Below, piece by piece: positions 3,491 through 18,913 of a DNA stretch of 44,844 bases. Each line of letters opens with the position of its first letter. The first letter of the stretch is position 1. This DNA is from Candidatus Brocadiia bacterium (GTDB taxonomy: Bacteria > Planctomycetota > PUPC01): the NCBI GenBank assembly GCA_030605345.1, contig JAUWIN010000008.1, forward strand, positions 1 through 44,844. The letters run 5' to 3'. The position numbers and the translations under genes are program-made. The notes under the pieces were generated by a model, which saw nothing but the letters and a program-made list of their open reading frames with translations, searched no databases and had not been told where the DNA came from.

Positions 3491-4902
3491 CCTCCTGCGA
3501 ACCGAAGCAATGGAACTGCCCCGGGAGTGCTCGGCTGGCGCCCTTGCTCGCGGCGGTCGCCATCGTCCTCGTCGCCGCCCCCGCCGCCGGGCAGGACGGA
3601 ATCTCGAAACTGGACGCCGACCGAAACGTGACAGTCTCCACCCGCGACATGGACCTCGCCGCGTTCCTTGAACTCCTCTCGGTCAGTTACAAACTCAACA
3701 TCGTCGCACCGAAGGACATCACCGGAAAGGTCTCGGTCAACTTCTACGACGTGCCCCCGCTTGACGCCCTCCGGGCGGTCCTCGAAGCGAACGGATATCA
3801 CTATGTCCTCGAACAAACCGCGGGCAGGCCCATCGTCAAAATCCGGGCGATAACCAAGGTCGAAGGCGCGGTGCCGGTGGTCATGCGGACGTTCGTTCTC
3901 GACTACGCCACCGCCGCGGACGTTGCAGCGGCCGCCGAAAAACTCCTCAGCCAGAACGGGAGCATCACAACCGCCACAGGCAGAAACGCCATCGTGGTCC
4001 AGGATGTCGCCGAGTCCATTCAGCGCATCGAGGACCTCGTCGAACTGATGGACGCTGCCCCAAGGCAGGTTATGATCGACGCCAAAATCATCGAACTGAG
4101 CAAGACCGACGTGGAGGAAACCGGATTCAACTGGTCCATGTTCCAGAACATGAACATCGCAGACATCACCGTAGAAGCCTCCTACGCCCGGGCTGCCGAG
4201 TGGGTAACTACAAAAGTCACCGGCACCGCGACCACCCACACCCGCAACATCGTCCGCACCACCGGCACCAACGTGGACCTTCGAGCTGGGATCCTGGCCG
4301 AAAACGACGCACAACTCATGCTTGACTTCTTCGACACCATGACAAACACCACCATCCTCTCCAGGCCAAGCATCCGCACCCTGGACAATAAAGCCGCTCC
4401 CATCATCTCAGGCCAGATCGTGCCCATCCCGCTGTTCGACTTCGCCAAGGACACCGGCGTGAGGACCCTCAGCGGCTTCCAGGAAGAACAGATCGGTGTT
4501 GCACTCACCGTCACCCCTCACATCAACCAAGACGGCTACATCACCCTGGAAATCCTCCCAAAGGTGGAAAGTATTGCCCGTTACATCTCCGTCGACGGCG
4601 AGGAGCAGCGACCGGTCAAAAACACCAGACAGGCCGACACCACCATTCGCATCAAGGACGGCCAGACCGCCGTCATCGGCGGGCTCACCCAGGCCAACAC
4701 CACGATCACCACAACCGGCCTGCCGTGGTTCAAAGACCTACCCCTCATAGGCTTCCTGTTCAGGAATAAAACCAACGCCGTCGAGAACACCGAGCTCATC
4801 ATCTTCATCACCCCCAAAATCGTCAAGGACGGCGAGGAATCACTCAGCCAAGCGCACAAAAACCTCCTCAGACAGGTTGACAAGGCCACCATCGTAAAGT
4901 GA
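3487..4902 (+). CDS. pilQ: Type IV pilus secretin PilQ
   Basis: Outer-membrane secretin, 471 aa from ATG 3487, which overlaps the preceding stop (ATGA). A GTG at 3472 is possible but lies inside the upstream gene. Domains: signal peptide (about residues 1-36, ending AAGQ); STN-type domain (about 43-105, VTVSTRDMDLAAFLELLS through VSVNFYDVPPLDALRAVL); a secretin N-domain (about 118-192, with VVQDVAESIQRIEDLVELMD); and the secretin barrel (about 200-465) with VTPHINQDGYITLEI, GQTAVIGGL, LPWFKDLPLIGFLFR and ELIIFITPKIV. It is short compared with PilQ proteins that carry AMIN domains; none is visible here. It closes the pil operon. Confidence 0.93.
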   Translation: MTSCEPKQWNCPGSARLAPLLAAVAIVLVAAPAAGQDGISKLDADRNVTVSTRDMDLAAFLELLSVSYKLNIVAPKDITGKVSVNFYDVPPLDALRAVLEANGYHYVLEQTAGRPIVKIRAITKVEGAVPVVMRTFVLDYATAADVAAAAEKLLSQNGSITTATGRNAIVVQDVAESIQRIEDLVELMDAAPRQVMIDAKIIELSKTDVEETGFNWSMFQNMNIADITVEASYARAAEWVTTKVTGTATTHTRNIVRTTGTNVDLRAGILAENDAQLMLDFFDTMTNTTILSRPSIRTLDNKAAPIISGQIVPIPLFDFAKDTGVRTLSGFQEEQIGVALTVTPHINQDGYITLEILPKVESIARYISVDGEEQRPVKNTRQADTTIRIKDGQTAVIGGLTQANTTITTTGLPWFKDLPLIGFLFRNKTNAVENTELIIFITPKIVKDGEESLSQAHKNLLRQVDKATIVK

Positions 4903-4921
4903 TGTCCCCTCCCCCGCCCGC

Positions 4922-4950
4922 TTGACACCCACCGGGCGCGAGAATAGAAT
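4922..4950 (+). promoter_or_regulatory. Sigma70-type promoter for rnpA-yidD-pfp
   Basis: TTGACA (4922-4927), 17-bp spacer, TAGAAT (4945-4950), a near-perfect consensus. Transcription should begin around 4956-4960, almost on the GTG start of rnpA at 4960, so the message would have little or no leader. Confidence 0.75.
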
Positions 4951-4959
4951 GCGTCACCA

Positions 4960-5331
4960 GTGGAAGCCCGGCCAAGCCATACCTTTTCACGCCGCGAGCG
5001 CCTGAAACACAGCAGCGATTTCCGCCGCTGCATCCGGCAGGGCGGACGAGCCGCGGGAAAACACATCGTGGTCTGCATCGCCGACAACGAACTCGGCATC
5101 ACGCGACTGGGAGCCAGCTCGACAACCCGCCTCGGCAACGCCGCCGAACGCAACCGCGCCAAGCGCCTCGTGCGTGAAGCGTTCCGGCTCTCCAAAGACA
5201 AACTGCCCCACAGCGCCGACATCGTCGTACTGCCGAAAATACCGTGGCAAAACCCCTCACTCGAAGAGTTGAAAATCGAGTTACCCGACACTGCCCGCCG
5301 CGCCAAAGCCGAACTCGCCAGAAGAGTGTAG
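4960..5331 (+). CDS. rnpA: Ribonuclease P protein component
   Basis: Protein subunit that helps the RNase P ribozyme mature tRNA 5' ends. The 123-aa basic protein has the family start [16 protein letters not shown] and the signature [15 protein letters not shown] (about residues 66-80). GTG 4960 is the only plausible start before the conserved region, and no Shine-Dalgarno sequence precedes it. The promoter ends at 4950, so the gene appears leaderless. The usual neighbour rpmH is not upstream; the gene follows the pilQ secretin instead. The next gene is yidD, the usual neighbour. Confidence 0.92.
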
Positions 5332-5378
5332 GAAAAGTGAAAAGAACAAACACAACCCCGCAGGCGGGTGATTACCGA

Positions 5379-5642
5379 ATGCAGCGGAAACGCCGGGGCA
5401 TCTTTCCCATCCTTGCTTTGCTCACAGACGCCGCACAGTTTCTGCTCGTCGGCCTCCTCAGGCTTTACCAACGCACCCTCGGCGCGGTGCTGCCGAACTC
5501 CTGCCGGTTCCGCCCCACCTGCTCGGAATACTTCATCCAGGCCGTGCAAAAGTTCGGCCCGCTCAAGGGCACCGCCCTGGGAGTCTGGCGCTTCCTGCGG
5601 TGTAATCCGTATTGCAAAGGTGGACACGACCCCGTTCCGTGA
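5379..5642 (+). CDS. yidD: Membrane protein insertion efficiency factor YidD
   Basis: Small membrane-associated protein thought to assist YidC. The 87-aa product has an N-terminal hydrophobic segment and the family signature [14 protein letters not shown] (about residues 38-51), [17 protein letters not shown] and a final [15 protein letters not shown] 5379 is preceded by GGGTGA at a suitable distance. GTG 5337 in frame would add 14 residues and is an alternative. yidC would normally follow but is absent; the next gene encodes a phosphofructokinase. Confidence 0.9.
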
Positions 5643-5652
5643 GGAAAGCAGC

Positions 5653-6915
5653 ATGACAATCAGAGGTAATTGCATCGTGGCGCAGTCCGGCGGCCCGACC
5701 GCCGTCATCAATTCAAGCGCCTGCGGCGTTGTCCAGGAAGCGCTCAAAGCCGAGCCCATCACCGGCGTCTTCGCCGCACACAACGGCATCCTCGGCGTCC
5801 TCAACGAAGACATCTTCGACCTTGGCGAGGAGGACCCCGAGCAGGTTGAGGGTCTCAAACGGTCGCCGGCCGCGGCGTTCGGTTCCTGCCGCTATAAACT
5901 CAAAAGCCTCGAAGACAGCCGCACCGACTACGAACGCATCCTGGAAGTCTTCCGCGCACACCACGTCCACTACTTCTTCTACATCGGCGGGAACGACTCC
6001 ATGGACACTGCCCACAAGCTCACCATCCTGACCAAGGAACAGCGCTATCCGCTGGTGGTGATGGGCGTGCCGAAGACCATCGACAACGACCTCGCCTGTA
6101 CCGACCACTGCCCCGGCTATGGCAGCGTCGCCAAGTACAACGCCACCATCGCGATGGAAGCCGGCCGCGATACCGAAGCACTCTACACCCACGATACCGC
6201 CACAGTAATGGAGGTGATGGGGCGGAATGCCGGCTGGATCGCCGCGGCCACCGGCGTCGCCCACCGCACCGCAGAGGACGCACCACACCTCATCTACCTG
6301 CCCGAAGTCCCGTTCAGCATCGAGAAGTTCGTCGCCGATTGCAAGAAGGTGTACGACGACCTCGGACGGGTATTCGTCGTTGCGGGTGAAGGCATCAACG
6401 ACGGCGAGGGCAACTACGTCGCCGAGCAGAAAGGCCAGTTCGCCAAAGACGCCTTCGGCCACATCCAACTCGGCGGGGTCGCCGAGACGCTCAAGGGCAT
6501 TATACAGAGGCAACTTGGCACCAAGTGCCGATACATCAAGATGGGCACCGCCCAGCGGAACGGCATACACTTCGCCAGCAAGACCGACCGCGACGAGGCA
6601 TACCTGGTCGGGCAGAAGGCCGTCCAGCACGCCGCCGAGGGCGCCAGCGGCCTGATGGTCACCCTCGAACGCAAGTCCAACAATCCCTACGTTTGCGAGA
6701 CCGCCCTCGCCGACCTCCAGGAAGTCGCCAATGGTGAGAAGAAGGTGCCGCGCGAATTCATCAACGACGAAGGCAACGGCGTCACTCAGGCCATGACCGA
6801 CTACGTCACGCCATTGATGCAGGGCGAAGTAGAAATCAAAATCGCCCCCGACGGCCTGCCCGAATACACCCGTTTCACACGGCATAATCTGGAGCAGAAG
6901 TGCAAGCGGCGCTGA
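5653..6915 (+). CDS. pfp: PPi-type 6-phosphofructokinase (diphosphate--fructose-6-phosphate 1-phosphotransferase)
   Basis: Phosphorylates fructose 6-phosphate, probably with pyrophosphate, which makes this glycolytic step reversible. The 420-aa protein has the N-terminal QSGGPTAVIN motif, IGGNDSMDTA (residues 111-120) and PKTIDND (140-146), then MEVMGRNAGW (186-195). Lys in PKTIDND and Asp rather than Gly as the fourth residue of GGND mark PPi use; ATP enzymes have PGTIDND and GGDG. The third residue of that motif is Asn where Asp is commoner. ATG 5653 has a GAGGA box upstream. The last 67 codons are duplicated 1.2 kb downstream around an FRG-domain gene. Cofactor choice is inferred from the motifs only. 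Confidence 0.9.
   Translation: MTIRGNCIVAQSGGPTAVINSSACGVVQEALKAEPITGVFAAHNGILGVLNEDIFDLGEEDPEQVEGLKRSPAAAFGSCRYKLKSLEDSRTDYERILEVFRAHHVHYFFYIGGNDSMDTAHKLTILTKEQRYPLVVMGVPKTIDNDLACTDHCPGYGSVAKYNATIAMEAGRDTEALYTHDTATVMEVMGRNAGWIAAATGVAHRTAEDAPHLIYLPEVPFSIEKFVADCKKVYDDLGRVFVVAGEGINDGEGNYVAEQKGQFAKDAFGHIQLGGVAETLKGIIQRQLGTKCRYIKMGTAQRNGIHFASKTDRDEAYLVGQKAVQHAAEGASGLMVTLERKSNNPYVCETALADLQEVANGEKKVPREFINDEGNGVTQAMTDYVTPLMQGEVEIKIAPDGLPEYTRFTRHNLEQKCKRR
6712..6915 (+). repeat. Direct repeat copy 1: 3' end of the phosphofructokinase gene
   Basis: This 204-bp coding segment (residue 354 to the stop) recurs at 7918-8121 in the same orientation, at a constant offset of 1206 bp and with no gaps. By eye 182 of 204 positions match. 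The first 159 bp differ at only 5 positions; the last 45 bp differ at 17. Weak similarity may start about 6 bp earlier (LAD codons). Confidence 0.9.
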
Positions 6916-6966
6916 GAACGGAGCGACCAGAACACGACCTGCAATCCGGAAAGTGAGAGAGATGAT

Positions 6967-7890
6967 ATGAAGTCACCTGTCGCAACAAGCATATCGTCAT
7001 ACATCGACCACCTTGGCGAGTTATCCGACGAGCTCGGAGTAGGTCCGGACGATGCGATCTGGTATCGAGGCCAACCCCGGAGGTGCACATGGGACCTCAG
7101 ACCTGGGCTGTACCGGAGGGAATTCTATCCCCATCTGCAAGAGGGAGAACCATTTCCGGTGACGCCAGCGGCAGCACTCGAAGCACTGCTCAAGAAACGT
7201 TTTGTACTGCGCTCACGCCCGTTGCTGGGTCGCAAGGTGGAAAAGGAGACGCTGGAACTACTGTTCCTGATGCAACAGCACGGAGTACCCACGAGGTTAT
7301 TAGACTGGACCGAAAATCCGCTCGCTGCGCTTTTCTTCGCTGTCAGAGACGAAGGCAAGCGCGGTGAACCACCCCAGGAGAAGTCGGCGGACCATAGACA
7401 ACCGAAACAGACACGAAGGAGCGGGGCCGCGGTATATCTCCTGAAGCCAACGGCGTTAAACTCTTTGTCGCACATAGAAAGCATCTTGAGTGACGACGAG
7501 GACGAACCGTCTTTCGGTAGGTATGTGTGCCTAGAATTCATGATGCACCTGGAAGCCAAGTACCCGACAGCCTACCTGCCGCCGTTGTTGCACCAGCGCA
7601 TGGTCGTTCAACAGTCTGTTTTCACGCTTCACGGCAATGATCCCAGCTCGTTACAGGACCTGAACGCAATAGCTGAGGCAAATGGGAAAAAGCCGTTCTT
7701 AGCAGAAATACGCATCCCCCGCGAGAGTCTCAGCAACATCTACAAGGAGCTAACGGGGCACGCGGGTGTAACCGAATACTCGTTGTTCCCGGACCTTGAT
7801 GGTCTCGGAAGGGAGCTGTGTAGTCTGGCACGCCATTGCGTATGGGCCGAACGGGACAAGGAAGACACCGAGGCCAATGACACCAAGTAG
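6967..7890 (+). CDS. FRG-domain protein, inserted between two phosphofructokinase 3' ends
   Basis: A 307-aa soluble protein with the FRG-domain signature: IWYRGQ (residues 31-36), RPGLYR (45-50) and MQQHGVPTRLLDWTENPLAALFFAV (102-126). The domain is named for its F-R-G pattern and is frequent in accessory and defence-related regions, but no biochemical activity is established for it. No signal peptide or membrane helix is visible. ATG 6967 follows a purine-rich GAGAGAGAT stretch. The base composition looks lower in G+C than the flanking glycolytic gene, suggesting later acquisition. It lies 51 bp after the phosphofructokinase stop and ends 27 bp before the second copy of that gene's tail. A role in phage defence is a hypothesis only. 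Confidence 0.85.
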   Translation: MKSPVATSISSYIDHLGELSDELGVGPDDAIWYRGQPRRCTWDLRPGLYRREFYPHLQEGEPFPVTPAAALEALLKKRFVLRSRPLLGRKVEKETLELLFLMQQHGVPTRLLDWTENPLAALFFAVRDEGKRGEPPQEKSADHRQPKQTRRSGAAVYLLKPTALNSLSHIESILSDDEDEPSFGRYVCLEFMMHLEAKYPTAYLPPLLHQRMVVQQSVFTLHGNDPSSLQDLNAIAEANGKKPFLAEIRIPRESLSNIYKELTGHAGVTEYSLFPDLDGLGRELCSLARHCVWAERDKEDTEANDTK

Positions 7891-7910
7891 CGGGAGCCGA
7901 GCCGCTCCCG
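7891..7910 (+). terminator. Hairpin directly after the FRG gene
   Basis: CGGGAGC, 6-nt loop, GCTCCCG: a perfect 7-bp stem starting at the base after the FRG stop codon. There is no T-run after it, so termination strength is uncertain. Confidence 0.4.
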
Positions 7911-7917
7911 CCTAGCG

Positions 7918-8121
7918 GACCTCCAGGAAGTCGCCAACGGTGAGAAGAAGGTGCCGCGCGAATTCATCAACGACGAAGGCAACGGCGTCACTCAGGCGAT
8001 GGTTGACTACGTCACGCCATTGATGCAGGGCGAAGTAGAAATCAAAATCGCCCCCGACGGCCTGCCCGAATACACCCGCTTCCAGCGGCACAACATTGAG
8101 AAGAAATGCCCGGAACGGTAA
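7918..8121 (+). pseudogene. Detached second copy of the phosphofructokinase 3' end
   Basis: Remnant encoding only the last 67 residues (DLQEVANG... to RHNIEKKCPER, stop TAA at 8119-8121). It has no start codon context and no body. It matches copy 1 at 182 of 204 positions by eye; most differences lie in the last 15 codons (RFTRHNLEQKCKRR in the intact gene versus RFQRHNIEKKCPER here). The frame is intact, so the fragment is either young or was recently separated from its gene. It is the right-hand boundary of the FRG insertion and may be the original 3' end of the gene displaced by the insert. Confidence 0.88.
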
Positions 8122-8150
8122 GATAGAAGACGCTCGATGGTCTTCTATTT
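8121..8150 (+). terminator. Inverted repeat after the detached phosphofructokinase end
   Basis: ATAGAAGAC (8123-8131) and GTCTTCTAT (8140-8148) form a perfect 9-bp stem with an 8-nt loop; a G-T and an A-T pair extend it outward. It starts on the stop codon of the detached copy and ends in TTT. It may be the original terminator of the phosphofructokinase gene. No equivalent follows copy 1. Confidence 0.45.
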
Positions 8151-8179
8151 GCCGACAGTCACTCCGAGAAAGTCGAGTA

Positions 8180-9016
8180 ATGGACGCGGTGAACAAAATA
8201 ATCTGCGGCGACGCGCTCGGAACGCTCCGGGCTTTGGATTCAGAATCGGTTCATCTCGCTATAACCTCGCCTCCCTATAACCTGGCGAAGCTCTATTCCA
8301 ACCACGATGACAAAATGGAATACGACGAATATCTCCGCTGGATGAAGGAGGTCTGGGTCGAGACGAAGCGTGTGTTGGTCGAAGGCGGAAGGCTCTGCAT
8401 AAACATCGGAGAGAACAAGAGACAGAATATCAGCTATCCAACCTACACCGCGTTCACCCAGGATTGTGTCGATGCTGGCTATCTATACCGCGGAACAATA
8501 ATCTGGAACAAGAACAGCGCGGCAAAGCACTGCGCATGGGGTAGTTGGAATAGCGCAACGAACCCGCACATCGTTCCGCGGCATGAGTATATCCTGTGTT
8601 TCTCCAAGGGCATGTTCAAGCTGGGCGGGGAAAAGTGCAACTGCGACCTCGACCCCGACCTCTTTATGACATGCACGCGGAGCGTCTGGTCCTTCGGAAC
8701 CGAAAGTAAAACCAGGGTCGGCCATCCGGCCCCGTTTCCCAAGGAACTCCCGCGGCGGCTAATCAAGTTTTATTCTTTTGTTGGCAACGTCGTGTTGGAC
8801 ATGTTCGCCGGCAGCGGAACAGTTGGAGTGGTCGCGAAGCAACTAGGGCGCAGATTCATTCTAATTGAGAATTCTCGCGAATACTGTGAACTGGCAGTCA
8901 GGCGTATTGAGGCCGAGGCTGGCGCCACATTGTTCGACGGCAACCGCGAAGTCGTTCGACCCGGAGGCTCTCGACGGGATGAAAAAGTAACCCTTCTCGA
9001 AGAACTCCGCCTGTGA
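8180..9016 (+). CDS. Site-specific DNA methyltransferase (N4/N6 amino type, beta arrangement)
   Basis: Transfers a methyl group from S-adenosylmethionine to an amino group of cytosine or adenine in DNA. The 278-aa protein has the catalytic motif TSPPYN (residues 29-34) near the N-terminus and the SAM-binding motif DMFAGSGT (207-214) near the C-terminus, the order of beta-class enzymes. PFPKELPRRLI precedes the SAM motif as in related enzymes. SPPY is seen in N4-cytosine and some N6-adenine enzymes, so the target base is open. ATG 8180 is chosen because the frame upstream lacks family sequence. No restriction endonuclease gene is adjacent. The A+T content is higher than in most of the window, consistent with acquisition along with the FRG gene. 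Confidence 0.9.
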   Translation: MDAVNKIICGDALGTLRALDSESVHLAITSPPYNLAKLYSNHDDKMEYDEYLRWMKEVWVETKRVLVEGGRLCINIGENKRQNISYPTYTAFTQDCVDAGYLYRGTIIWNKNSAAKHCAWGSWNSATNPHIVPRHEYILCFSKGMFKLGGEKCNCDLDPDLFMTCTRSVWSFGTESKTRVGHPAPFPKELPRRLIKFYSFVGNVVLDMFAGSGTVGVVAKQLGRRFILIENSREYCELAVRRIEAEAGATLFDGNREVVRPGGSRRDEKVTLLEELRL

Positions 9017-9137
9017 GTTGACCTGACGCAGCCGCGGTAATCTCGAGCCGCATGGCGCAAACTACAAATGAAGAACGGCCTCCAGTTCGGTGGCTACTCA
9101 TTGACATGGGCGGTAACTCATTGAAAAGGAGATGGGC

Positions 9138-10214
9138 ATGGCGGAGAGACAGAAGGGTGGGTATGACTTCTCGCCGTTGGTGCTGGATAAGCAGGTGATG
9201 GAGCAGACAGAACAAGAGTTGGCCTACGATGGCGGCGAGGTGCGCACCTGGCAGCGGAAACTGCGCAGAAAACTCAACCAGTTGCTGGGGATGGACAAAC
9301 TGCCCAAGAAGAATCCGCCGCTCAACGTCCGCTCGCTGTGGAAACGAAAACATCCCCTTTCGCCAAGCCTACGGCGAACCGAAGGCGAACTGGGAACTAT
9401 CGAGAAGATTGTGTTCACGGCGGAGCCAGGCGCCGACGTGCCAGGGTATGTGTGCATCCCGAAGCACGCGACGCCCCCATATCAGTGGATGATCTGCGTG
9501 CAGGGGCACTCGACAGGGATGCACAACTCGATCGGTGTGAAGTTTGGCCACGAGACGAAACGCATGAAGACAGAAGCCGACCGCGATTTCGCGCTCGGCT
9601 GCATGCGGCGCGGTGTGGCCGCTCTCTGCCTCGAACAGCGCGCGTTCGGCGAACGCAGCGTTACCCCGCCCGAACCCAACTGCCACCGACCGGCTATGCA
9701 CGCGCTGATGCTGGGTCGGACGCTAATCGGCGAACGCGTCTTCGACGTGGACCGTGGGATCGACTACCTTGCAACCCGCGACGACGTAGTGAGGAAATCA
9801 CTGGGCATTATGGGCAATTCGGGCGGCGGAACAGTCTCGATGTTCTCGGCCGCGACGCTCCCGCGGCTTAAGTTCGCAATGCCGTCGTGCTACTTCTGCA
9901 CCTTCCGTGACTCCATCATGTCGGTATATCACTGCATGTGCAACTATGTCCCCGGGCTCTACAGGGTGGCCGAGATGGCGGACATCATGGGTTTGTTCGC
10001 GCCGAAACCGGTCGTACTCGTCGCCGGCAAGGACGACGAGATTTTCCCGGTGGCCGCCACTCGAAAGAGTTTTAGAAAACTGAGGCGGATTTACCGGGCT
10101 GCAGGTGCGGCAGACCGCTGCCACCTGGTGGTCGGCGACGAAGGCCACCGCTTCTACGCGGAAAAGGCATGGCCCAAGGCACTTAGTGAGTTGCGGACGC
10201 TCCGCTCGGGTTGA
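9138..10214 (+). CDS. Alpha/beta hydrolase (acetylesterase/dienelactone hydrolase type)
   Basis: A 358-aa serine hydrolase without a signal peptide. The nucleophile elbow is GNSGGG (Ser about residue 228); the likely acid is an Asp of GKDDEIFP (about 299-300), and the likely base is His in DEGHRFY (about 337). An HGHS-like strand turn VQGHSTG lies near residue 122. The layout, with a long N-terminal extension before the hydrolase core, resembles acetylxylan-esterase-like hydrolases common in planctomycete and related genomes. ATG 9138 is preferred over ATG 9132 because AAGGAG (9126-9131) abuts the latter but stands 6 nt from the former. The substrate is unknown. It faces the glycosyltransferase gene tail to tail. 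Confidence 0.78.
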   Translation: MAERQKGGYDFSPLVLDKQVMEQTEQELAYDGGEVRTWQRKLRRKLNQLLGMDKLPKKNPPLNVRSLWKRKHPLSPSLRRTEGELGTIEKIVFTAEPGADVPGYVCIPKHATPPYQWMICVQGHSTGMHNSIGVKFGHETKRMKTEADRDFALGCMRRGVAALCLEQRAFGERSVTPPEPNCHRPAMHALMLGRTLIGERVFDVDRGIDYLATRDDVVRKSLGIMGNSGGGTVSMFSAATLPRLKFAMPSCYFCTFRDSIMSVYHCMCNYVPGLYRVAEMADIMGLFAPKPVVLVAGKDDEIFPVAATRKSFRKLRRIYRAAGAADRCHLVVGDEGHRFYAEKAWPKALSELRTLRSG

Positions 10215-10222
10215 CGCGAAGG

Positions 10223-10279
10223 CCCCCGGCGAGCCAGCGATGTTGTCCCGCAGGCCGACGGAGTTGTCGCTGCCGGGGG
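10223..10279. terminator. Large imperfect hairpin between convergent genes
   Basis: CCCCCGGC (10223-10230) pairs with GCCGGGGG (10272-10279) and AGCGA (10236-10240) with TCGCT (10267-10271), giving 13 bp with one 5-nt bulge. It lies between the 3' ends of the hydrolase (+) and glycosyltransferase (-) genes, so it could act as a bidirectional terminator. There is no T-run on either side. Confidence 0.45.
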
Positions 10280-10308
10280 TTGGACATCTTTCGTCGTCAG
10301 CACGAGGG

Positions 10309-11463
10309 TCAAGAGGACGCTGCGGTTGCTTCGGCTTCCTTTGTGCCTCTGCCGGAGAGGACGGCCTCGTAGATGGTGGCGATGTGGCGGGCGGTGGCTT
10401 CGATATTGAAGTTTTCAGCAACCATCTGCCTGCCGCGGTGTGCGAGTTCGGCGGCCGAGTCGGGATGCTCGAGCAGGTATTCGATTTCGCGTGCGAGCGC
10501 GTCGGGGTCCCCCTTCGGCACAAGTATCCCGGTCTTCCTGTTTTCGATTAAGGCGAACATCCCGCCGGCGCTGGTGGCAATGACGGGGATGCCCCAGGCC
10601 ATAGCCTCGATGGCCGGCAAGCCGAGAGCCTCTTTCAGTGCCGGGACCACCATGATGTCGATAGCTTGCAACACGTCGAGCTGATCTACCGGCGGCCTTG
10701 CGAAGGTGACGGAACCGACCAGGTCGAGTTCGGAGACGATGTTGTGCAGCCGCTTCCGGTCGGGCCCGTCGCCCGCGATGATGAAGTGCGCGTCTATGCC
10801 GCGCATAGCGAGGAGGTTGGCGGCGCGAATGAAATACTCCTGCCCCTTGCTCTCGACGAGTCTGCCGATGGTGCCGACAACTGGGAGTTTGGAGCGATGG
10901 GCTGTTTTGCGCTCCTGCGGTACGTCGTAGTCTGTGTCAACCCCGCCGTGCACCACCTCGACGGAGCCGCGCGGCAGCCGTATCCGGTTGACCAGGTCGA
11001 CCCTGACGGCGTCGCTGGGTGCGATAATCTTTCCGATGAACCGCCTCGAGATGCTGAGCGACTGGCCCGGGTCAAGAAAGTCGTCGATTCCGAGGAGATA
11101 TGGCTTTCTGATCCGGCGCGCCAGCCTGGCCCCGACACCCGCCAGGCGAGAGCCGTGAACGTGGACGATGTCCGGGTTTATTTCACGCACGCGAGGGACC
11201 AGGTAGCGCAGATTGAACCGCCCCCGCAGATTGTTGCTCAGCGCCCGCGAAAGCAGGACGGGAGGGTTATACTCGCCGGCGCGCTGTTCGCTGTCGCGCG
11301 GATAAACTTTCGCAAGCGACCCACTGCGACACACCATCGTAACTTCGTAGCCTAACTTGTTCAGGTGACGTGCGAGCGCCACGACCATCCTGCACCCGCT
11401 GTTCGGCTGCAACCGGCCAACAACGAAAAGCACCCGCCTGAGACCGCCACCTGAGTCAGACAT
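10309..11463 (-). CDS. Glycosyltransferase family 4 (GT-B)
   Basis: Transfers a sugar from an activated donor, probably during assembly of a cell-surface polysaccharide. The 384-aa protein has the N-terminal glycosyl_transf_4 domain (RVLFVVGRLQPNSGCRMVV, INPDIVHVHGSR) and the C-terminal donor domain with GTIGRLVESKGQEYFIRA, HFIIAGDGPDRKRL and the EX7E-type block EALGLPAIEAMAWGIPVIAT. ATG 11463 is preferred to an in-frame GTG two codons upstream. It follows a second glycosyltransferase by 120 bp on the same strand and probably acts in the same pathway. Donor and acceptor cannot be told from the sequence. Confidence 0.9.
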   Translation of the reverse strand: MSDSGGGLRRVLFVVGRLQPNSGCRMVVALARHLNKLGYEVTMVCRSGSLAKVYPRDSEQRAGEYNPPVLLSRALSNNLRGRFNLRYLVPRVREINPDIVHVHGSRLAGVGARLARRIRKPYLLGIDDFLDPGQSLSISRRFIGKIIAPSDAVRVDLVNRIRLPRGSVEVVHGGVDTDYDVPQERKTAHRSKLPVVGTIGRLVESKGQEYFIRAANLLAMRGIDAHFIIAGDGPDRKRLHNIVSELDLVGSVTFARPPVDQLDVLQAIDIMVVPALKEALGLPAIEAMAWGIPVIATSAGGMFALIENRKTGILVPKGDPDALAREIEYLLEHPDSAAELAHRGRQMVAENFNIEATARHIATIYEAVLSGRGTKEAEATAASS

Positions 11464-16404: not shown

Positions 16405-16625
16405 AATGTTTCTTTTTGGCAACACGGGCCGACCGTCTGTAACCTCCGGTGCTGTCAGAGGTTACGACGCAAATCGCACCAAAAGGCCGGCCCGTGCTCA
16501 AAAAATTGGACTGCTGCACGGTTCCGGCTTTGTAGGCCCGGTCGGAAGATACAAAATACCCGGCCCGGTAAGCACAGATAATCCCAAGGCTTACGGCGTA
16601 GCCGGCATTCCCGGGCATTTTTTGG
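16405..16625 (+). ncRNA. Candidate structured RNA (unassigned)
   Basis: The 447-bp gap between aas and the next gene contains dense inverted repeats. CACGGGCCG (16423-16431) pairs perfectly with CGGCCCGTG (16488-16496) and encloses CGTC-t-GTAACCTC / GAGGTTACGACG (16434-16469), 12 bp with one bulge. Further on are TTCCG/CGGAA (16522-16547) and GTAAGC/GCTTAC (16568-16594). A G+C-rich stem then runs into TTTTTT (16618-16623), like an intrinsic terminator. A possible promoter, TTGCTG-16-GCTAAT, lies at 16380-16407. Together this suggests a transcript of about 210 nt, or a leader of the gene at 16707. I could not match it to RNase P RNA, tmRNA or SRP RNA. Confidence 0.4.
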
Positions 16626-16706
16626 CCGCGGCTGGCGCGGATCTTGCTGCAATGACAAGGCGTCACGAGCGGTTCGGGCATCAAACCTGTTCACGAGAGG
16701 CCCAAA

Positions 16707-17338: not shown

Positions 17339-18913
17339 TTGTCAGAACCATCCTCCCCGCCGGGACGCATCGCGGCAAGTGCCCTGAAGTTGTTCACTGG
17401 GACGCTCGCCAGCCGGGTTCTCGGATTCATCCGGGTCGTGCTGATGGCGAGGTATTTCGGCGGCCGGGCCGCAATGGACATCTTCAACATAGCGTTCATG
17501 GTCCCAAACCTGTTCCGCAGGGTGCTTGGCGAGCAGGCGGTCGAGAGCGCCTTCTTGCCCACGTTCAGGTCACTCACGGCACGGGGGAACGTCCGCCAGG
17601 CTTGGCGGACCGCGTCCGTCGTCCTCAATTGGCTCATCATGGCGCTCTTAGTTGCGGCGACCGCTTGTTATCTGCTGGCGCCTTGGCTGGTCTCGTGGGT
17701 CCTGGCGCCAGGGTTCGACCCGGACACCGCCGGTCGGGCCGCCGACCTCGGCCGGTTGATGTGCCCGTTCATGGTGCTCATCGGCTTGGCGGCGTTCTGT
17801 GGCAGTTTGCTGCTGGCGCACGGCCAAGTGTGGGCCTATGGGCTGGCGCCGGCTCTGTTCAACGTCGGCTGGATCGCAACCATGGCCGCCTCGCACCGCC
17901 AGCTGGGCATTTACAGCCTGGGGCTCGGAGTGCTGATCGGCGGGGTGCTCCAGTTGGCAGCTTCAGTTATCGCACTCCTCTGGGGCCGACGGCGCGGCCG
18001 GGTCCGGGGCGGGTACAGGGCGAGCCATGGTCTGGCGGATGAGAGCGCCTCACGTGCTATGGGCTTGGCCGTTCCGGTGTGCGGGGCGGCGCTGATTGCA
18101 CGGTGCGCGTGGGTAGTTGACCGTTTTATCGCGTCTTATCTAGAGCAAGGGAGCATTGCGGCGCTGGGGTACGCGATGCCGCTGGTACTGGTACCGTTCG
18201 CTCTGTTCGGCCTTTCGATCGGGCGCGCTGCCTTGGCTCCGCTGAGCGAGGACGCCGCTTCCGGGGATGCTGAGCGGCTCCGGCACAGCTTGGAGAACAC
18301 CGTCTTACTGGGGCTGCTGTTTCTCATCCCTCTGACGGCCGGGACGGCGCTGCTCGCAACTCCGTTCGCCCAGCTCCTGCGGGGCGGGGAATTTGGCGAC
18401 GACGAAGTGCAGATGGCCGCCGCCGCGCTCCGCTATTACGCGCTCGGTCTGGCCGGTATGGGCATGGTCAGTATCCTTTCGCGGGCGATGTACGCGATGA
18501 AGGATACCTTCCGGCCACTGCTGGCCGCGTCCGCGGCGCTGGTCATCAATGCGATACTCAGCGCCGTGCTGGCGTTCACTCCGATGCGCCACGCCGGCAT
18601 CGCTCTGGCGACGTCTGTTGCGATGACGCTTCAGGCATTGTTCCTGTTCATCGTGGTCAGAAGAAAACTCCGTCGGTTGGGAGCGGGAGGGACTTTCGGC
18701 CGGCTGTGGAAACCTGCGGCGAAGATGTGCATTGCAACAGCCGTTATGTCGGCGACTGTGCCCATCCTGGTAGGGCTCAGCGGCTGCTATATCAATTCGC
18801 CCTCGTTTCCGGCTCGCCTTGTCGGGCTATTGATCCCCGCGTGCGGCGGTGCCGTGGTGTATGGGCTTGCGATACTCCTTCTGGACCGGCAAATAATGCG
18901 GCGGCTCCGGTAG
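17339..18913 (+). CDS. murJ: Lipid II flippase MurJ
   Basis: Flips the peptidoglycan precursor lipid II across the cytoplasmic membrane. The ~524-aa polytopic protein (about 14 helices) opens with ALKLFTGTLASRVLGFIRVVLMARYFG, then DIFNIAFMVPNLFRRVLGEQAVESAFLPTF, the classic MviN/MurJ N-terminal signature with conserved Arg residues. LLRGGEF and YYALGLAGMGMVSILSRAMYAMKDT follow in the second half. TTG 17339 is 6 nt after AGGTGAGG, which is a better ribosome site than that of GTG 17327, four codons upstream in frame; either is possible. Presence of MurJ argues that the organism makes peptidoglycan. Confidence 0.93.
   Translation: MSEPSSPPGRIAASALKLFTGTLASRVLGFIRVVLMARYFGGRAAMDIFNIAFMVPNLFRRVLGEQAVESAFLPTFRSLTARGNVRQAWRTASVVLNWLIMALLVAATACYLLAPWLVSWVLAPGFDPDTAGRAADLGRLMCPFMVLIGLAAFCGSLLLAHGQVWAYGLAPALFNVGWIATMAASHRQLGIYSLGLGVLIGGVLQLAASVIALLWGRRRGRVRGGYRASHGLADESASRAMGLAVPVCGAALIARCAWVVDRFIASYLEQGSIAALGYAMPLVLVPFALFGLSIGRAALAPLSEDAASGDAERLRHSLENTVLLGLLFLIPLTAGTALLATPFAQLLRGGEFGDDEVQMAAAALRYYALGLAGMGMVSILSRAMYAMKDTFRPLLAASAALVINAILSAVLAFTPMRHAGIALATSVAMTLQALFLFIVVRRKLRRLGAGGTFGRLWKPAAKMCIATAVMSATVPILVGLSGCYINSPSFPARLVGLLIPACGGAVVYGLAILLLDRQIMRRLR

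Follow-up and report, generated by a model that had tools for sequence, protein, structure and literature searches.

How single defence genes that lack an integrase travel between genomes is an open question. When DNA homologous at one end only entered Escherichia coli, 56 of 60 clones had insertions accompanied by duplications of 109–950 bp, which were accounted for by circularisation and a single crossover (PMC3240628). At rhs loci, circles carrying a piece of the conserved core together with a new tip have been proposed to recombine and shunt the old tip downstream, the core pieces being of variable length (Jackson et al. 2009, PMC2935791), and cdi and T6SS loci carry stacked remnants of a rhs-like kind (PMC6336857, PMC5361080). 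FRG proteins represent a clade of the ART superfamily and are possible NADase effectors in prokaryotic immunity (PMC9503650). Here, we compare these systems with a planctomycete locus at which an FRG-domain gene lies between two copies of the 3′ end of the phosphofructokinase gene pfp.

The locus is part of a 44.8-kb window (the whole stretch of DNA analysed) from a planctomycete genome that was assembled into 141 contigs with a total of 2.28 Mb and is 92% complete and 3.3% contaminated. Base-by-base recomparison reproduced exactly what the initial annotation had described: two pfp tails of 204 bp each, at an offset of 1206 and with 22 differences, of which five fall within the initial 159 bp while the other 17 lie in the final 45 bp (Table 1). 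A repeat search of the window returned the same pair as 6705–6903 and 7911–8109 (spacing 1206, identity 91%), the sole direct repeat of at least 40 bp in this DNA. Both copies keep the reading frame and stop at the equal position, copy 2 being an in-frame tail of ~68 residues, and the tail peptides match with an E value of 3e-39, which places the repeat far above chance. The presence of an FRG gene between the copies was likewise borne out, and from its family matches, which include PDC-S15, a candidate defence family of PADLOC, this gene is predicted to serve in phage defence. Of the two stems noted earlier, the one behind copy 2 proved strong and the one behind the FRG gene moderate; a simple terminator scan called neither of them. 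No third pfp tail was found 3′ of the methyltransferase gene that follows copy 2. This type II-like methyltransferase, directly 3′ of the displaced pfp end, has no visible endonuclease partner and is missing at this place in the sister genus.

Table 1. Features of the pfp locus (coordinates refer to the window).
Feature	Coordinates	Strand	Evidence and remarks
pfp, diphosphate--fructose-6-phosphate 1-phosphotransferase; intact, terminates in tail copy 1	5653..6915	+	PF00365 E 9e-55; NF010675 E 1e-166; 79% identical single-tail orthologues in G001/G002
Tail copy 1: conserved part (6712-6870) and divergent terminal 45 nt (6871-6915)	6712..6915	+	
Cargo: FRG-domain gene, 307 aa, predicted NADase-type antiviral effector of the ART superfamily	6967..7890	+	PF08867 E 2.6e-17; PADLOC PDC-S15 E 4e-41
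Hairpin immediately 3′ of the FRG gene, at the junction of cargo and tail copy 2	7890..7911	+	fold -17.7 kcal/mol, z -1.9
Tail copy 2: putative displaced pfp 3′ end, in frame, stop present, without gene body	7918..8121	+	protein-level identity 91%; open frame of just 76 aa
Strong stem-loop 3′ of tail copy 2; may mark where the pfp transcript originally ended	8121..8150	+	z -4.95, 0/200 shuffles equally stable; no call in terminator scan
DNA methyltransferase (N6_N4_Mtase) 3′ of tail copy 2	8180..9016	+	PF01555 E 3e-46; PADLOC MTase_II E 1e-70

A genome-wide repeat comparison, covering 1.73 of the 2.28 Mb with each contig set against itself, revealed this layout at three loci, pfp/FRG, idh/Mrr and A2M/hicBA, which are alike in order and orientation. 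In each case, an intact conserved gene is followed by defence-type cargo on the same strand and then by a displaced copy of the gene's own 3′ end, and the frame runs intact through tail copy 1, so that the 3′ end of the target gene is restored. At the second locus (contig 75, L121), a gene for an isocitrate/isopropylmalate dehydrogenase (PF00180, Iso_dh) precedes a same-strand gene for an Mrr-type endonuclease (Mrr_N, Mrr_cat), 3′ of which the last 146 nt of the dehydrogenase gene are repeated. An eroded third tail of 42 nt begins 42 bases past the stop of tail 2 and itself ends in a stop (QMGDAIIGALGKA followed by the stop); its alignment score of 44 compares with a maximum of 27 in 100 shuffles. 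Displaced ends accordingly stand in series at idh, while the pfp and A2M loci have one each. The third locus (contig 114, L161) consists of an alpha-2-macroglobulin gene, a gene pair and a copy of the last 88 nt of the former. The second member of the pair encodes a HicA toxin (PF07927); for its HicB-like partner, family searches returned no match. The A2M tail copy carries an in-frame stop, which points to decay of this copy.

By family, all three cargoes are thus defence-type or addiction genes, and the repeats around FRG, Mrr and hicBA measure 204, 146 and 88 nt. Among 1492 ORFs scanned, one-sided duplications of gene tails occurred at three genes and those of gene heads at none, the remaining hits (tandem paralogues and protein repeats) having been sorted out by eye. 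The G+C content of cargo and host is 0.55 vs 0.62 for FRG, 0.49 vs 0.60 for Mrr and 0.58 vs 0.59 for hicBA. As a separate observation, a perfect 24-bp palindrome, GTTCGCCTGTGCGCACAGGCGAAC, occurs twice in L121 (G000:C75), first in the interval that separates the Mrr gene from tail 2 (1111–1134) and then 3′ of the third tail (1502–1525); one further copy lies in L142 (C96), and none elsewhere in the 1.73 Mb read.

Other direct repeats were set aside, comprising tandem paralogues (L141, L135, L186, L074, L181), PEP-CTERM family genes (L126, L094), TPR-like protein repeats (L081, L080), Rhs fragments (L159) and intergenic repeats (L048, L080 at 9267/11234, L124, L128, L067). The L159 fragments (G000:C112, ~4213–9818, minus strand) are of Rhs type and stand in a row with different ends, sharing core pieces at 5037–5175/7856–7994 and 7754–7862/9631–9740; they are apparently classical dissociated rhs tips. 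L126 (G000:C80, 1–3702) holds three consecutive PEP-CTERM genes with unrelated bodies and a common 3′ end of 200–280 bp, made up of a dockerin-like region and the sorting signal, of which a fourth copy is found at 1–174. The 85-bp intergenic direct repeat in L080 (G000:C33, 9267–9351 and 11234–11321) surrounds a PLD-like/DpnI_C restriction-type gene (9949–10770, minus strand) and was not convincing as a gene tail. In L124 (G000:C78), a 48-bp repeat (16585–16632 and 18142–18189) lies at the ends of trpE and a HEAT-repeat gene, which flank a PEP-CTERM gene; it resembles an intergenic element that has become part of the coding sequence for the HEAT protein's C-terminus.

The nearest relatives compared, G001 and G002, are sediment metagenome assemblies that belong to another genus of the same family. 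Both have yidD upstream of pfp, a single pfp tail (79% identity for the whole protein) and a different gene downstream. The methyltransferase is absent behind pfp in both. Across 392 Planctomycetota genomes, the pfp tail was matched in 53 and the dehydrogenase tail in 84, and each is doubled side by side in this genome only; in relatives, the dehydrogenase gene is uninterrupted and followed by other genes. As far as can be seen with nearest relatives from another genus, single tails in these genomes speak against an old duplication shared among relatives, a scenario that the initial annotation had named as a refutation of its reading. Its suggestion that pfp might be a hotspot for cassettes found no counterpart either, since in every other genome matched by the pfp tail a second tail beside the first is lacking. 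FRG genes are present in 50 of the 392 genomes. Viral contigs yielded no close relatives of FRG or Mrr, and plasmids and phages harbored distant FRG proteins only. In G239, another member of the Planctomycetota, one of two matches to the dehydrogenase tail (C35:5854–5994 and C79:84577–84663 of that genome) falls within an open frame of 63 aa that includes a stop, and is possibly another displaced end; the other match, in a full-length frame, covers just the first 29 tail residues.

Differences between tail copies are concentrated at their ends. With the 45-nt boundary taken beforehand from the earlier reading of pfp, the last 45 nt contain 17 of 22 differences at pfp (p = 5e-9, hypergeometric test), 9 of 13 at idh (p = 0.003) and 10 of 12 at A2M (p = 0.016). 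The repeat is therefore not a plain target copy. In the preceding part of the pfp tail, the two copies are 96% identical to each other and about 75% identical to the sister genus; in the terminal 45 nt they are 62% identical, equal to the identity of either copy with the sister genus. The counterpart comparison of the idh copies gave 107/111 against 26/35. Gene ends vary faster in the sister-genus pair, too, G001 and G002 differing at four positions in the preceding part of the pfp tail and at five in the last 45 nt. The 17 terminal differences seen here exceed those five (Fisher p = 0.006), whereas a comparison of the ratios alone was not significant (p = 0.38).

Except in the A2M copy, the frame is preserved despite the changes, and the resulting ends look like natural variants of the C-terminus, for instance HNLEQKCKRR vs HNIEKKCPER at pfp. 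Such frame-keeping terminal divergence of between-genus size suggests that one end was imported with the cargo and that recombination kept the conserved part alike; for pfp, joint import of one of the two ends with the FRG gene is the most likely course. Which of them is native is a matter of plausibility. It had been proposed that copy 2 represents the original end, and both the strong stem behind it and a Val codon block (GTT/Val) that it has in common with the sister genus fit this view; a comparison of both tails with pfp of the relatives, as had been recommended, showed the terminal parts to be equally distant from the sister genus, and the assignment is accordingly not proved. The terminal part of copy 1 has no closer match to any known donor, and the five differences within the conserved part reveal no clear crossover point.

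We consider integrase-free, RecA-type displacement of the 3′ end by an imported tail plus defence gene to be the best explanation of these observations, and a probable one. DNA of a related cell, in which the tail of the corresponding housekeeping gene was followed by a defence-type gene (FRG), would enter the cell, and the imported tail would recombine with the conserved part of the resident tail, in the simplest form as a circularised fragment by a single crossover. This would fuse the resident gene body with the imported 3′ end and the cargo, leaving the resident's old end, together with its terminator-like stem, downstream of the cargo. The gene would remain intact, with the cargo placed for read-through from its promoter. 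The same process may have acted at the idh gene (Mrr), at least twice judging by the third tail, and at the A2M gene (hicBA-like pair). The claim of the initial annotation that an insertion supplies a replacement end and leaves the old one behind is well supported and is joined by two further independent loci in the same genome, whereas its overall reading is supported in part. We infer that homologous recombination was the agent and a circle the intermediate, that the DNA came in by natural transformation and that the cargo was retained because it serves in defence. Natural transformation would be possible given that the window contains ComEC and pilM/secretin (type IV pilus) genes.

With three loci in one metagenome-assembled genome, the case for this mechanism is moderately strong. 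On this reading, ordinary recombination at gene ends may be enough to bring in single defence genes, with no dedicated insertion enzyme. If so, gene tails would act as homologous anchors, and any conserved gene end could take up cargo harmlessly. Duplicated 3′ tails would moreover be a signature by which defence genes could be found without knowledge of their families, and here a blind tail scan led to the Mrr endonuclease and the HicBA-like pair. More tentatively, 3′ ends of housekeeping genes might be general recombinase-free docking sites, tail and cargo forming a mobile unit that RecA moves between tail copies, so that a single lineage would accumulate defence genes behind numerous genes, with stacked tails as a record; we regard this generalisation as possible, yet doubtful.

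Chief among the alternatives is a site-specific integrative element, since e14 at icd in E. coli shows the same layout. Such an element would be either a remnant or non-autonomous, with an integrase that acts in trans or has since been lost, an att site in the 3′ end of the gene and a substitute end that it brings along. At icd–e14–icdC, the duplication comprises 165 bp of the icd tail, the e14 gene next to the old end is mcrA, a restriction gene, and the dehydrogenase targeted here has a gene end related to that of icd. The earlier likening of the pfp locus to integrative elements at tRNA genes indeed holds for the layout; it fails for the mechanism. In agreement with what had been noted for pfp, no integrase or IS end is near that locus, and no recombinase lies near any of the three. 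In the 1.73 Mb read there are no serine resolvases and two full tyrosine recombinases (C35, C68), which in number would match a XerC/XerD pair although they were not identified as such. Three unrelated target genes would call for three specificities, the copies start at varying positions (204, 146, 88 and 42 nt before the stop), and searches at the cargoes detected neither terminal repeats nor a shared cargo-end motif, nor, as for an IS or transposon, terminal inverted repeats above shuffles. In e14, furthermore, differences are dispersed over the 165 bp with the last 21 nt identical, whereas those described here are clustered in the last 45 nt. A site-specific element hence appears unlikely.

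Duplication within the genome, of a segment comprising tail and FRG behind pfp with subsequent loss of the second FRG copy, would make import unnecessary and would suit two in-frame tails with a nearly identical conserved part. Decay after such a tandem duplication would not produce intact, orthologue-like and yet differing C-termini or terminal divergence of between-genus size, and the scheme needs three events with defence-type genes, each followed by a precise loss. Partial tandem duplication and homologous recombination of imported DNA had been rated as equally possible at the outset; the latter is now favoured, and the orthologue-like divergence of the terminal 45 nt renders the former quite improbable. 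Even less credence is due to an assembly chimera, in which strains with different pfp ends were merged: although an assembly with the number of contigs, completeness and contamination given above would permit it, identical order and orientation at three unrelated loci, each with defence-type cargo, are not what it predicts, and the junction of FRG with mid-pfp sequence requires physical DNA or a chimeric read, with contigs extending to both sides. Displacement by an imported tail could also have proceeded by classical homology-facilitated illegitimate recombination (HFIR), in which one end of a linear DNA pairs with homologous sequence and the other is joined at a microhomology, in this case at a point upstream of the first. 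One-sided homology fits this sub-variant, which has been invoked for T6SS and cdi displacement (PMC5361080, PMC6336857), but HFIR typically deletes recipient DNA, duplication being a sign of the circular single-crossover route, and no junction microhomology of 3–10 bp stood out. We deem it unlikely.

Displacement of a gene end by an imported tail shares features with several described systems. Insertion of restriction–modification genes with long target duplication (Nobusato et al. 2000; PMC1643837, PMC3031569, PMC4978471) likewise involves single defence-type genes, a long direct target repeat and no IS ends. It was demonstrated there by a comparison between two strains belonging to the same species; at our loci, what is repeated is the 3′ end of a gene in particular, and its terminus is divergent, the cargo includes an FRG effector and a toxin–antitoxin pair, and a third, stacked tail is seen. 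In the circularised-DNA single crossover in E. coli (PMC3240628), foreign DNA is flanked by a duplication of 109–950 bp of the homologous end, an arrangement comparable to the one described here, yet that system is a laboratory conjugation assay with a selectable marker, as opposed to a natural cassette. At icd/icdC of E. coli K-12, e14 similarly replaced the 3′ end of a dehydrogenase gene with the element's own, the old end being icdC behind mcrA; unlike the loci described here, e14 is a 15-kb prophage with intE, and the differences are evenly spread through the 165 bp. Displacement at rhs (PMC2935791) and at cdiA/T6SS loci (PMC6336857, PMC5361080) has in common with our loci a near-identical conserved part, a divergent end, old ends stacked downstream and a proposed recombination of circular intermediates. 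In those systems, the anchor itself encodes the polymorphic toxin, its new tip serving as payload, whereas the anchors here (PFK, Iso_dh and alpha-2-macroglobulin) include no Rhs, CdiA or other polymorphic toxin, and a housekeeping gene would keep its function while the payload is a separate gene.
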